Shown one piece after another: positions 44,479-51,376 of a DNA stretch of 64,000 nt. Numbering within the stretch: the first letter of the stretch is position 1; each line of letters starts with the position of its first letter. Source of the stretch: Gammaproteobacteria bacterium. Lineage in GTDB: Bacteria > Pseudomonadota > Gammaproteobacteria > Pseudomonadales > Azotimanducaceae. The translations under genes and the position numbers were made by a program. The stretch spans positions 1 to 64,000 of the forward strand of contig JAAXKB010000002.1 in assembly GCA_012269545.1 (NCBI GenBank), read 5' to 3'. The notes beneath the pieces were generated by a model. The model had not been told where the DNA came from and did no database searches. It saw nothing but the letters and a program-made list of their open reading frames with translations.

Positions 44479-45693
44479 CTACTTGGAGAACTCAGGGTAT
44501 GCAACGATGCCAATCTCAGCAGCGTCCGCGCCTACCATCTGATCTTCTTCCGACAGACGAATGCCGAAAATCATCTTGATTACAAACCACACTACCAAGG
44601 CAGCGGCGAAGGTAAAGCCAAGAATCACGCCTAAGCCAGTAAGCTGTCCTGCCAGAGTAGCGCCATCGGTGGTAATCAGTACCGCCATCAAGCCCCAAAT
44701 GCCGCAAGTGCCGTGAACCGAAATCGCTCCCACCGGATCATCGATACGCATTTTGTCCAGCGCAACAATAGACAGCACGACTAGCAGACCACCAACCGCG
44801 CCAATCAGCATGGACTCAATGTTCGTGCCAGATAGCGGTTCTGCGGTAATGGAGACCAAGCCTGCGAGTGCGCCGTTCAGCGCCATAGTCAAGTCTGCCT
44901 TGCCAAACAAGGTGCGGGCGAGGATCAGCGCGGCGATCAAGCCGCCTGCGGCCGCCATGTTGGTGTTCACAAACACTTGCGCTACCGCGTTCGCTTCATC
45001 AATGTTACTCAGCTTCAACTCAGAACCGCCATTGAAGCCAAACCAGCCGAACCACAGAATAAACATGCCAAGCGTTGCAAGGGGCATATTAGAGCCCTGA
45101 ATCGGGTTCACTTCTCCGTTGGGGCCGTATTTGCCTTGACGAGGGCCGAGCAGTAACACTCCTGCTAAGGCTGCAGCCGCGCCACACATGTGAACGATGC
45201 CTGATCCAGCAAAATCAATAAAGCCTGCATCAGACAAAAAACCACCGCCCCAGCTCCAGCTTCCTTGCAGAGGGTAAATAAACCCTGTCATTACCACTGC
45301 AAATAGCAAGAAAGACCAAAGCTTCATGCGCTCAGCAACGGCGCCAGAGATAATCGACATTGCCGTCGCAACGAATACGACTTGAAAGAAGAAGTCTGAT
45401 CTGGCGCTGTAATACACTTCTCCACCAGAGGCTAGGACCTCATCCACTGTGTTTTCCGGGCCGATCAGCAATCCTTCGCCTCCATACATGATGGAGTAGC
45501 CCACAAGCAAATACATAACGCACGCTACTGCGAACAACGCAACATTCTTTGTAAGAATCTCAGAGGTGTTTTTGCTGCGCACCATCCCTGCTTCGAGCAT
45601 TGCAAAGCCGGGTGCCATGAACATCACGAGAACCCCCATGATGAGAAAGTAGAACGTGTCTACCGCGTAACTGAGTTGAACTAGATCTTCCAC
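44479..45693 (-). CDS. amtB: Ammonium transporter (copy 1)
   Basis: MFMAPGFAMLEAGMVRSKNT, DFAGSGIVHMCGAAAALAG, ISVHGTCGIWGLMAV; GTG start. Confidence 0.95.
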   Translation of the reverse strand: MEDLVQLSYAVDTFYFLIMGVLVMFMAPGFAMLEAGMVRSKNTSEILTKNVALFAVACVMYLLVGYSIMYGGEGLLIGPENTVDEVLASGGEVYYSARSDFFFQVVFVATAMSIISGAVAERMKLWSFLLFAVVMTGFIYPLQGSWSWGGGFLSDAGFIDFAGSGIVHMCGAAAALAGVLLLGPRQGKYGPNGEVNPIQGSNMPLATLGMFILWFGWFGFNGGSELKLSNIDEANAVAQVFVNTNMAAAGGLIAALILARTLFGKADLTMALNGALAGLVSITAEPLSGTNIESMLIGAVGGLLVVLSIVALDKMRIDDPVGAISVHGTCGIWGLMAVLITTDGATLAGQLTGLGVILGFTFAAALVVWFVIKMIFGIRLSEEDQMVGADAAEIGIVAYPEFSK

Positions 45694-45841
45694 CGAATCT
45701 CTCCGTTTGAATTATTGGATACCGTTCGCCTCACTAAGCTGCTGCGTACTGCGCGGCCCCTTGTGAGGACTTGTTAATTAAGAGCCAAATAAGCTGGGCG
45801 CGGCCATACCAATGACCGCACCGCAGATTCTTGGATTCCGA

Positions 45842-47053
45842 CTAGTTGTCGAATTCTGGGTATGCGCTGATACCTACCTCGGATGAATCCAGTCCAGCAA
45901 GCTCTTCTTCTTCTGAAACTCGAATTCCCATCACCATCTTGATGACGAACCAGACGACCAAGGAGGCCACAAAGGTGAATCCCAAAATGGCTCCGAGGCC
46001 CGTTAACTGCCCTTGCAAAGTCGCGTCTTCGCTGGTGATCAATACTGCCAAAAGGCCCCAGATACCGCAGGTTCCGTGAACGGAAATAGCTCCAACGGGA
46101 TCGTCGATCTTAGCTTTATCGAGTCCGATCAAGGACAAGACGACTAACACCCCACCGATAGCACCGATGAGCATCGACTCGGCGTGGGTTCCAGAGAGAG
46201 GTTCGGCGGTAATCGAGACAAGGCCCGCCAAGGCACCATTGAGAGCCATCGTTATGTCTGCCTTTCCAAAAAAGATCTGCGACATCAACAGTGCGGCAAC
46301 AGCCCCACAAGCGGCAGCCATATTCGTGTTTACAAATACTTGAGCTACCGCATTCGCTTCATCAATGTTGCTAAGCTTCAGCTCCGAACCGCCGTTGAAA
46401 CCGAACCATCCGAACCAAAGTATGAACATTCCCAGCGTTGCTAAAGGCATATTACAACCGGGAATCGGCGTTATCGATCCGTCCTCGTTGTACTTACCTG
46501 ATCGCGGACCAAGAAGTAAGACGCCTGCAAGAGCCGCCGCCGCGCCGCACATATGAACTATTCCCGATCCTGCAAAATCGACAAAACCTGCGTCAGAGAG
46601 GAACCCGCCGCCCCAGCTCCAGCTACCTTGAATCGGGTAAATGACGCCAGTCATTATCACGGCGAAAAGAAGAAACGCCCAAACCTTCATTCTCTCCGCG
46701 ACGGCGCCGGAAATAATAGACATGGCTGTCGCGACGAAAACAACTTGAAAGAAGAAATCTGACTTGCCGGAATAGTAAGTCTCGCCGCCTGAAGCAAGCA
46801 CCTCCTCCACAGTGTTATCAGGACTTAGCAGCATGCCTCCTGCGTACATCAGGTCGTAACCAACCAAGATATACATAATACAAGCGATCGAAAACAGTCC
46901 GATATTTTTTACCAAAATGCCGGACGTGTTTTTAGATCTCACCATACCTGCTTCTAACATTGCGAAGCCGGGCGCCATAAACATCACCATGGCCCCCATA
47001 ACTAGGAAGTAGAACGTATCTACCGCGTAACTTAACTGAATTAGATCTTCCAC
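45842..47053 (-). CDS. amtB: Ammonium transporter (copy 2, glnK-linked)
   Basis: Close paralog of copy 1; 24 nt downstream of glnK; GTG start. Confidence 0.95.
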   Translation of the reverse strand: [403 protein letters not shown]

Positions 47054-47077: not shown

Positions 47078-47425
<348 letters not shown>

Positions 47426-47602: not shown

Positions 47603-47618
47603 AGCAAAAGGCATGCCT
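47603..47618 (-). promoter_or_regulatory. Sigma-54 (-24/-12) promoter upstream of glnK
   Basis: Minus strand aGGCATGcctttTGCt: GG-N10-GC; compare consensus TGGCACG-N4-TTGCW. Confidence 0.7.
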
Positions 47619-47788
47619 ATTTTTCGTGTCGCCGTCTGATTGACGCCAAGTTGGACAAAAACGCCCATATTCGTAAAAACTTCAACGCTTATTGTCGGTG
47701 ATGAGCACCTATCTGCCCCTTGAAACGCATGTTTGCGCGCAAGAATCAGGCGGCGGCGCCCGAAAAGAGGGCACTCGCTCCGATCTAA

Positions 47789-47950: not shown

Positions 47951-48232
47951 ATGCATTTAGACCCGTTCACCACCATACTTCGGCCCATTATGCAGTTGCT
48001 GGATCAAACGCTGCCTAAGAATTTGGCCGACTCCCTAAAGGCCGATATCGAAGATAAGGCTCAGAGCTTATTCAAGCAGATGGCACTGGTGCCAAAACAT
48101 GAGTTTGAAGCGCAAGAAGCTCTGCTACAGACCTTGGAAGCACATATTGAAGCCCTCGAAAAGCGTTTGTCTCAGCTCGAGAAATCATCCGCTAACAAGT
48201 CACACCTAGGCGCTGACAACGTCGAGGGCTGA
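47951..48232 (+). CDS. ubiK: Ubiquinone biosynthesis accessory factor UbiK (YqiC/BMFP)
   Basis: Short protein with C-terminal coiled coil; MALVPKHEFEAQEALLQTLEAHIEALEKRLSQLE. Confidence 0.85.
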   Translation: MHLDPFTTILRPIMQLLDQTLPKNLADSLKADIEDKAQSLFKQMALVPKHEFEAQEALLQTLEAHIEALEKRLSQLEKSSANKSHLGADNVEG

Positions 48233-48243
48233 TTGGCCGATCC

Positions 48244-49851
48244 ATGAATCGCAGCGCCTGTGTCCTCAGCCGAACGGCCTACGGATTAGAAACGCACCTT
48301 GTTCATGTGGAGTGTCATCTGAGCGGCGGTTTGCCAGGTACCACGATTGTGGGATTAGCCGAGGGAGCCGTCCGGGAAGCCCGAGATCGAGTGAAAAGCG
48401 CCATTCGCAGCAGCGGTTTTAGCTATCCCGTCGGCCATATCACGATTAATCTCGCGCCGAGCCATTTAAGCAAGTCGGGCAGCGGCTTCGACCTACCCAT
48501 CGCTATCGCCATATTGGCCGCCAGCGATCAGTTGCCCAGCGACGCGCTGGAGCAAACAGAATTCATTGGAGAGCTGGGGCTATTCGGCGAGCTGCGCAAG
48601 GCTCACAATGTGCTGACAAGTGCTGCGTCCTGTTATCAACGCGGGCATCGCCTGTTTCTGCCTCAGGCAAACGGCCATGAAGTTCGTCTGATCGCCAGCG
48701 ATACCTTTTGGACCGCAGCCAGCCTGTTGGAGGTCGCTGAAATGCTCTGCGGCAAAAGACAGAAACCGCCCGCACTGGTTAGAGCGATAGAGGCAGGTGA
48801 CGAAAAACACCGCCAAACTTTCGAGCAGATTATCGGTCAGTATCTTGCCAAGCGCGCGCTGACCATCGCCGCTGCGGGAGGGCATCACATGCTGATGATT
48901 GGCCCCCCGGGAACGGGCAAGACCATGTTAGCGCAATGTTTAGCTGGCTTGCTTCCGGACCTTGACCAACAACGGGTACTGGAAGTTGCGACGGTATACT
49001 CTGCCTACGGTAGCGAGCGAAAACACTATCGAAGACCGCCCCTGAGAAGCCCTCACCACTCCATCAGTCCAGCGGCGATGGGGGGTGGCGGACAAACCCC
49101 AACACCCGATGAAATCTCGCTATCCCACTGTGGTGTGCTATTTCTCGACGAACTGCCTCATTTTAAGCCATCGGCACTGGACTTGCTCCGTGAGCCCATC
49201 GAAACCGGCGAAATTGCCATCGCAAGAGCCAGTTACAGGACATCATTTCCCTGTCGTTTCCAACTGATTGCCGCGATGAATCCCTGCCCGGCGGGCCGCA
49301 CCTGCAAAGAGCACACATGCCGTTGTACCTCCAGTCAGGTGCAGCGTTACCAAAGCAGAGTTTCAGGGCCACTGCTGGACCGCATTGATCTCCACGTACC
49401 GGTGCCAGAACTGGATCAGCAAACCATGTTGAACCTAGAGGAAGAGAAGCCGGAAGACTCCGGCGGCATGAGTTGGGAGGAAGCACGGCAAACCATCGTT
49501 CGTGCCCAGGAACGCCAGACCGCTCGGCAAGGTTGCTTAAACGCTCACATGCATACACAGGACCTGATACGTAGAATGCAGCAGGCAGACCTAGACACCT
49601 CTTATTTAACGCGCATCACAGAGCACTTTGAGTTATCCATGCGCAATTACCACAAGCTGTGGCGCATCGCGTTGACTCTGGCTGACCTTGCGTGGGTAGG
49701 GGAAAATAAGGAACTCACGGAGTTTAACGGCTCCAGTGATGAGCTCCATGTAAAAGAGAGTCATCTTTTGGAAGCGTTGAGCTTCAGGGCAATGCAGTGG
49801 AGTGGGCGCTACGCAACCATCACTTGGTCATCCTTTTTCAGGACCGGATGA
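48244..49851 (+). CDS. comM: YifB/ComM family Mg chelatase-like AAA+ ATPase
   Basis: HLSGGLPGTTIVGLAEGAVREARDRVKSAI, GPPGTGKTMLA, MNPCPAGRTCKEHTCRCTSSQVQRYQSRVSGPLLDRIDLHVPV. Confidence 0.95.
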   Translation: MNRSACVLSRTAYGLETHLVHVECHLSGGLPGTTIVGLAEGAVREARDRVKSAIRSSGFSYPVGHITINLAPSHLSKSGSGFDLPIAIAILAASDQLPSDALEQTEFIGELGLFGELRKAHNVLTSAASCYQRGHRLFLPQANGHEVRLIASDTFWTAASLLEVAEMLCGKRQKPPALVRAIEAGDEKHRQTFEQIIGQYLAKRALTIAAAGGHHMLMIGPPGTGKTMLAQCLAGLLPDLDQQRVLEVATVYSAYGSERKHYRRPPLRSPHHSISPAAMGGGGQTPTPDEISLSHCGVLFLDELPHFKPSALDLLREPIETGEIAIARASYRTSFPCRFQLIAAMNPCPAGRTCKEHTCRCTSSQVQRYQSRVSGPLLDRIDLHVPVPELDQQTMLNLEEEKPEDSGGMSWEEARQTIVRAQERQTARQGCLNAHMHTQDLIRRMQQADLDTSYLTRITEHFELSMRNYHKLWRIALTLADLAWVGENKELTEFNGSSDELHVKESHLLEALSFRAMQWSGRYATITWSSFFRTG

Positions 49852-49915: not shown

Positions 49916-50551
49916 TTAGAAGGATTTACCGATTGAAAGAACGACGGCCTCGCCCTCAGCATCGGAACCCGCAGCGCCTTCTAGCTCATCGCTCGGAAAG
50001 ATGATCGCTACACCGAGATCGATCTCTGAAACCGTGGTGCCATAACCCAGCTCAAAATAATCGCCATCGAAATCGTCACCGAACGTCCCGTAGGTGCCAT
50101 AGAACCCTTTACCGAGATCGATCGAGATGTCTAGGAAGTCATAGTCTTCCCCACCATTACCGTCCCATTCGCCAATGGAATAACCGATGGATACTGGGCC
50201 GTAACCGACGCTGAGGTTCACTTCTTCGTAGGTTTCATCCCAATCATCCGTGTAGTAGTAGCCGGTAAATCCTACACCGACTGACACGTCGCCGATGTCC
50301 ATACCATATCCGGCGTACAGGTCGTATTCGAGACCATCACCGACGTCTGCGGTCCACGCCCCTACATAGAAACCGCTTTCTTCGTAGTCGATTCCAGCGC
50401 TGGCAGAGGAATTCTTTTGATAAATGCCTCGATAGTAATATTCAGAAACGTAACCAATGTTGTACGAAACGTCTGCGCTAGCGACTGTCGTTACGCCAAG
50501 TGACCCCGCAGCAATGGCGGCGGCGGAAAAGAGTTTAGTGAGTGTTTTCAT
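49916..50551 (-). CDS. TorF family putative porin
   Basis: Signal peptide MKTLTKLFSAAAIAAGSLGVTTVASA, VSYNIGYVSEYYYRGI, beta-rich repeats, C-terminal F; ATG 50551 (ORF track extension to 50731 crosses the sigma-54 site). Confidence 0.85.
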   Translation of the reverse strand: MKTLTKLFSAAAIAAGSLGVTTVASADVSYNIGYVSEYYYRGIYQKNSSASAGIDYEESGFYVGAWTADVGDGLEYDLYAGYGMDIGDVSVGVGFTGYYYTDDWDETYEEVNLSVGYGPVSIGYSIGEWDGNGGEDYDFLDISIDLGKGFYGTYGTFGDDFDGDYFELGYGTTVSEIDLGVAIIFPSDELEGAAGSDAEGEAVVLSIGKSF

Positions 50552-50655
50552 CGTCTCTCCTGACAATTCGAAAATAGTGAATGGGAACTGGTGTTCTCCT
50601 TTTTCAGCGTCAACCGCGATTCTCATTGACCCGCCTGTTTCGCTGACCCATACGA

Positions 50656-50672
50656 AGCAACAAGCGGGCCAA
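50656..50672 (-). promoter_or_regulatory. Sigma-54 (-24/-12) promoter upstream of TorF porin
   Basis: Minus strand TTGGCCCGcttgTTGCT, GG-N10-GC, near-exact to YTGGCACG-N4-TTGCW. Confidence 0.75.
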
Positions 50673-50827
50673 CTTTTAATATAAATCGCAGCAAGCAAGC
50701 GAAGCGCGCTTAACCAACTGTTTTTATGCAATATTTTCGATAGATCGGGGCGAGGTGACGACGTGAGGACGGGGCCGCCTCGCGTAAAGATGCGGGAATT
50801 GCCTACTTAAAGTGCGCAAAAGTGAGC

Positions 50828-50852
50828 GCGGCGCCCAATTATGGTGCGCCGC
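50828..50852. promoter_or_regulatory. GC-rich inverted repeat: terminator of the cytochrome c gene or NtrC-like site
   Basis: gcggcgc-ccaattatggt-gcgccgc; contains intact GGTGC half-site. Confidence 0.35.
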
Positions 50853-50968
50853 TCCATCTCAGTGCTCATGAGGAAAGGTAGCCTTGGCAATACGGAGCGA
50901 TTTCCAAGGCTTGGTGATGCAGCGAACTTGATCGATTCGAAACCGGGCGGACAAAATCCTGCAGCGCG

Positions 50969-51376
50969 CTACTGGGCAGCGTCGACCATGTAGATGACCG
51001 CATCGCTCAGCTCATCATCAGAGCAGGACATGCAAAGGCCCTTCGCAGGCATGGCGTTAATGCCGTTGAGGGTGCTTGCCATCAACGTATCCATACCCTT
51101 GGAGATTCGAGGAGCCCAAGCGGCATTATCAGCAAATGTGGGTGCGCCACCGATGCCCATGGCGTGACACGTTGCACAATAGGTATCGTAAACCTCTGCC
51201 CCGCTTAGCGGAGCCGCAGGTGCCGTCACTACCGCAACCTCCTCAACTGCTGCACGATTAACGGTTCCATAGGGCTGCAGGCGCGCGTCGATCTCGTCGT
51301 CGCTACCAGGCGGCACGGCGTTGGCAGACAAGGCAAGCAACAGGGTTGAAGCAATAGCGATGAATCTCAGTCTCAA
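50969..51376 (-). CDS. Cytochrome c5 family protein
   Basis: Signal peptide; YDTYCATCHAMGIGGAP heme site; MPAKGLCMSCSDDELSDAVIYMV. Confidence 0.9.
   Translation of the reverse strand: MRLRFIAIASTLLLALSANAVPPGSDDEIDARLQPYGTVNRAAVEEVAVVTAPAAPLSGAEVYDTYCATCHAMGIGGAPTFADNAAWAPRISKGMDTLMASTLNGINAMPAKGLCMSCSDDELSDAVIYMVDAAQ

Follow-up and report, generated by a model that had tools for sequence, protein, structure and literature searches.

The window analysed here, a stretch of 64,000 nucleotides from a gammaproteobacterium of the family Azotimanducaceae, carries torF, a member of a porin family without a settled role, in the neighbourhood of a glnK-amtB-amtB cluster. The locus raises the question of whether torF belongs to the nitrogen starvation response and, if so, what its product would contribute. 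We propose that under nitrogen starvation phosphorylated NtrC, bound ~175-195 bp upstream, would activate sigma-54 RNA polymerase at the torF promoter, and that torF would be transcribed along with the glnK-amtB-amtB cluster, which has a promoter of its own. TorF, a homologue of Herbaspirillum NlmA, would form a small outer-membrane barrel of 12 strands with a strong negative charge. This barrel most likely makes the outer membrane more permeable to small cationic nitrogen solutes, ammonium among them; the inner-membrane Amt would thereby not be limited by supply. Taken as a whole, from the NtrC/sigma-54 starvation promoter to the raised permeability for ammonium and small cations, this proposal is probably correct. 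The features concerned are as follows.

50850..50866, minus strand: candidate distal NtrC site AGCACTGAGATGGAGCG, degenerate (7.8 bits)
50832..50848, minus strand: candidate proximal NtrC site CGCACCATAATTGGGCG, weak (5.8 bits)
50657..50672, minus strand: predicted sigma-54 -24/-12 promoter TTGGCCCGcttgTTGC, predicted TSS ~50645, conserved in orthologues
50552..50563, minus strand: ribosome-binding block GTCAGGAGAGAC, conserved and invariant, directly before the ATG
49916..50551, minus strand: torF (TIGR02001 / PF09694), outer-membrane barrel of 211 aa, by profile search
47951..49851, plus strand: ubiK and yifB, between glnK and torF here
47604..47619, minus strand: second sigma-54-like promoter TAGGCATGccttTTGC, 187 nt before the glnK ATG
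47078..47416, minus strand: glnK (P-II), by profile search
45842..47053, minus strand: amtB copy 1, marine subtype Amt, by profile search
44479..45693, minus strand: amtB copy 2, marine subtype Amt, by profile search

The sigma-54 element and the start codon of torF

On the minus strand, positions 50672-50657 read TTGGCCCG-cttg-TTGC (TTGGCCCGCTTGTTGC), with T as the next base. The GG-N10-GC spacing is exact, and the single mismatch to the YTGGCACG-N4-TTGC core is an A to C change in GGCAC. The first-pass annotation had called this a near-consensus site, and its description was accurate in sequence, strand, spacing and mismatch. The predicted TSS (~50645) is located 12 nt beyond the C of the -12 GC (C at 50657), which gives a predicted leader of ~94 nt to the torF ATG at 50551. 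That annotation gave a distance of about 95 nt to the ATG; the end of the -12 element itself is 105 nt from the gene. The annotation had also regarded the 5' extension of the open reading frame as unreal. Orthologues align from the ATG at 50551 and share the invariant GTCAGGAGAGAC before it; therefore, this ATG is the real start of torF. The 271-aa ORF starting from TTG at 50731, which reads through the promoter, was rejected as an artefact.

By itself, the motif is unremarkable in the window. The torF site is the only one with at most one mismatch in the 64 kb, where 0.59 such sites are expected by chance and at least one appeared in 47 of 100 shuffles. Because this window-wide test was not significant, comparative tests were used instead. 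In the 2.85 Mb genome, the stricter pattern YTGGCMYRNNNNTTGCW gave eight matches, including the torF site, compared with one for the reversed pattern. A search of both strands of 50450-51000 gave no sigma-70-like promoter. Located between the promoter and the NtrC-like sites, an A-rich block (ATAAAAACAG, 50718-50727, minus strand) hardly varies among six close genomes and is possibly an IHF-type bending site.

Conservation of the element and gene order around glnK-amtB

Among 201 genomes of the family, 76 had a TorF match; the torF neighbourhoods were retrieved, and 59 torF genes were scored. The sigma-54 matrix was our own, written from the published consensus, with controls to guard against arbitrariness, and sites of at least 11 bits were treated as strong. 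Such a site is present upstream of 56 of the 59 genes, nearly always 56-160 nt before the start codon. All 57 collected sites share the -24 GG, the preceding T and the TG of the -12 element, and the lineage prefers TTGGCCC, with C in place of the consensus A in 41 of the 57. When six close genomes were aligned (58% mean identity), no other position of the block AAAGTTGGCCC-(G/A)-nn-TGTTGCTT varied. Many genomes of the family have torF alone beside unrelated genes with the sigma-54 promoter kept, and the immediate neighbours tested of these stand-alone genes showed no nitrogen link. Position and conservation place the torF site far beyond chance, and we consider the promoter almost certainly real.

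A wider sample comprised 126 TIGR02001 genes of Gammaproteobacteria sensu GTDB, which include the betaproteobacteria. A sigma-54 site of at least 11 bits was found within 300 nt in 87 of them (~70%), compared with 3% of Markov shuffles, 3% of 856 other ORF upstream regions and 4/126 on the antisense strand; the sampled genomes are related, so the percentages, not p-values, bear the argument. The first-pass annotation had suggested scanning related torF upstream regions with a sigma-54 matrix and had made conservation of the -24/-12 element a test of its prediction, and the family scan, in which almost all orthologous loci keep the element, bears it out. In about half of the class-wide genes (59/126), glnK directly follows torF in the same orientation, and amtB usually comes next. 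Because 32 of the 126 have neither the site nor the linkage, and because the promoter is mostly absent from 20 TorF genes outside the class, the TIGR02001 family is not uniformly nitrogen-regulated. In a tree of 145 TorF proteins, the promoter and glnK-link states are clustered yet spread over more than one clade. A single clade of sigma-54/glnK-linked TorFs was considered and is unsupported, as the labels are clustered but scattered, with 25 changes for the operon-plus-promoter group.

Several unusual arrangements were observed. Outside the class, L363, L368 and L374 have the reversed order glnK-amtB-torF with a weak or absent sigma-54 site before torF, and L361 has amtB just upstream of torF. 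At L103 (G393) and L123 (G285), a single ORF of 468-480 aa contains two tandem TIGR02001 matches, forming a fused double TorF, preceded by sigma-54-like sites of 12.5 and 12.8 bits, respectively.

In the window, torF is not directly upstream of glnK, because ubiK and yifB intervene on the opposite strand, whereas the two genes are adjacent in sister genera. The order torF-glnK-amtB occurs in same-family genera (L058, L064, L065, L074, L077, L078 and L089), and ubiK and yifB adjoin the intact block in other genera. Except for L074, these loci have a sigma-54 promoter before torF and no strong site of glnK's own in the intergenic region. In L074, torF is directly before glnK, yet no sigma-54 site was detectable before torF (best 0.4 bits). 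The glnK promoter of the window recurs at a similar position and in a TAGGCAC/TCGGCAC form in seven sister genomes. The simplest reading of the gene order is that an ancestral torF-glnK-amtB operon was split and that both halves were probably kept under sigma-54. The tandem amtB pair after glnK (44479-47053) is shared with the closest relatives; other members of the genus have one copy.

Candidate NtrC sites and the Herbaspirillum precedent

The two NtrC candidates of the window score 7.8 and 5.8 bits out of 20.9 with a matrix for TGCACC-N5-GGTGCA. The pair aligns with better palindromes of sister genomes, and relatives have a stronger distal NtrC-type site (e.g. TGCACTAAAATGGTGCG) at approximately equal distance from torF. 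This degenerate pair is the weakest link for the window copy. NtrC-type palindromes of at least 10 bits in the 450 nt upstream accompany 78% of the family torF genes, compared with 5% of shuffles, and they mostly lie 65-120 bp farther upstream than the -24 element. Class-wide, they accompany 71% of the torF genes with a sigma-54 site and 26% of those without. The genome itself encodes rpoN (225.8 bits), an NtrC equivalog (707 bits, cut-off 558.6) and several other NtrC-like activators. At G000:C10:141014-144006, two activator genes on one strand match only the later part of the NtrC profile and have two strong sigma-54-like sites nearby, an arrangement suggestive of a PspF-type locus.

The nlmA-glnK-amtB operon of Herbaspirillum seropedicae depends on NtrC, and nitrogen limitation raises its expression 21-fold; NlmA was detected in membrane extracts of nitrogen-limited cells (PMC3023670). 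We located nlmA with the primer GlnKF1 (glnK 5' flank) in nine Herbaspirillum records readable in full; these are congeners carrying the primer site, with H. seropedicae outside the set, and the identification rests on the primer and gene order. The three NlmA proteins tested belong to TIGR02001 (166-171 bits), ATGGCACGGCTCCTGC or TTGGCACGGCTCCTGC is located 76-81 nt before the nlmA start, and glnK follows 15 bp after the stop. TorF and NlmA are therefore, at the level of sequence, one family under the same promoter type, and the regulation inferred for torF has an experimental precedent. The Herbaspirillum nlmA (orf1)-glnK-amtB locus resembles ours in its TIGR02001 first gene, its sigma-54 site and the presence of glnK and amtB in the regulon. 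However, it is one operon, whereas in the window ubiK-yifB stand between torF and glnK and each of these two genes has a sigma-54 promoter of its own; NlmA and the window TorF are only ~37% identical. In Caulobacter, NtrC likewise directly activates glnK and the Amt gene CCNA_01399 (AmtB family), but the report mentions no porin (PMC10274813).

The first-pass annotation had proposed nitrogen regulation without naming the NlmA precedent. The proposal is strengthened by the NtrC-type sites that usually precede the promoter, by the joining of torF to glnK-amtB in other genera and by the same-layout homologues in the NtrC-dependent, nitrogen-limitation-induced Herbaspirillum operon. Control of torF through NtrC is highly likely, and by analogy we infer the same regulation in the window organism. 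An nlmA-type gene of the glnK-amtB regulon is already known, and here it is split from its operon. What is added here is that TorF and NlmA are one family and that the link to glnK-amtB and sigma-54 spans much of the class; the literature searched contained no statement connecting TorF with NlmA and the Amt operon. Sequence comparison shows promoter conservation, regulon linkage and family membership.

The -24/-12 element might still be a chance look-alike, with torF expressed constitutively from another promoter, as the 0.59 sites expected in the window would allow. This explanation is already largely refuted and very improbable given the conserved position and sequence in orthologues, the lack of a sigma-70-like site nearby and the low antisense count. 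If the promoter is genuine, its activator could be a different enhancer-binding protein from NtrC, such as one that responds to carbon or stress. The several other NtrC-like activators in the genome and the degenerate palindromes of the window are compatible with such a regulator, but the clear TGCACC-N5-GGTGCA sites at orthologous promoters, the conserved glnK link and the NtrC dependence of the Herbaspirillum operon make it improbable.

The predicted TorF barrel and its possible cargo

The profile matches of TorF exceed the curated cut-offs of TIGR02001 (66.1 bits vs 47.15) and PF09694 (44.7 vs 24). The protein has a signal peptide and the C-terminal GKSF that also ends most orthologues. Its mature part contains 37 acidic and 4 basic residues in 186, close to the averages of 35 and 4 in 54 orthologues. 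AlphaFold, run with a shallow ten-sequence alignment, predicted 12 strands in a moderately confident model (pLDDT 68). Among the PDB structure matches, KdgM and NanC are the small barrels whose size fits (KdgM 4fqe, TM 0.57/0.68), whereas a PDB sequence search with TorF gave no match. These 12-strand monomeric porins are the closest solved barrels of similar size, but they have no detectable sequence similarity to TorF, and they carry acidic sugars whereas TorF itself is strongly acidic. Shewanella TorF, presumably the name-giver of the NCBI family, shares the family name and is an inducible outer-membrane protein, but its expression reportedly depends on TorR and TMAO rather than on sigma-54; the literature searched yielded no paper on this control.

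A strongly acidic small barrel would fit a cation-permeable channel, for ammonium and other small cations, that acts with Amt. A function of TorF as an ammonium or small-cation channel is plausible, although we place it somewhat below an even chance. Marine proteins are often acidic. Ammonium passes ordinary porins easily, so a dedicated pore may be unneeded. A much stronger acidity of nitrogen-linked TorFs was considered and rejected, as the difference from other TorFs is slight (net charge per residue -0.106 when linked, -0.082 with neither feature). Searches of the literature yielded almost nothing under the names TorF and TIGR02001, and no transport data for TorF or any TIGR02001 member. 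The broader view that TorF/NlmA is a dedicated outer-membrane ammonium (small-cation) channel, a partner of Amt and GlnK and an old component of the operon across much of Gammaproteobacteria, betaproteobacteria included, is tentative.

With the promoter and NtrC control accepted, TorF could instead conduct nitrogen compounds other than ammonium (amino acids, amines, urea or short peptides), co-regulated through nitrogen scavenging. NtrC regulons generally include organic nitrogen uptake, and BCAL3473, a different, amine-transporting porin, appears in the NtrC-regulon table of Burkholderia cenocepacia. The stand-alone torF genes that keep a sigma-54 promoter in many family genomes also indicate that proximity to Amt is not required. 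Against these points, torF is paired specifically and widely with glnK-amtB (59/126), which favours ammonium over organic nitrogen, and we regard the wider cargo as a serious possibility but not the favoured one. Alternatively, the part played by TorF at the outer membrane during nitrogen stress could be structural or in signalling rather than in transport. Such a role would agree with the lack of a transport assay for any TIGR02001 member in the literature searched and with the placement of NlmA "most probably in the periplasm" (PMC3023670). It is unlikely in view of the predicted 12-strand barrel with its KdgM/NanC-like matches and the listing of Gcw_chp domains among 12-strand outer-membrane pore-forming families (PMC4827864).

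The conserved sigma-54/NtrC-type promoter and the frequent first place in an ammonium-uptake operon point to a family role in nitrogen uptake, and the poorly understood TorF channel family very probably aids cells in acquiring nitrogen when it is scarce. A porin family without a settled role thereby gains a well-supported regulatory context, and its function becomes directly testable in the genetically tractable Herbaspirillum. The findings suggest that the response by which cells scavenge ammonium includes the permeability of the outer membrane.
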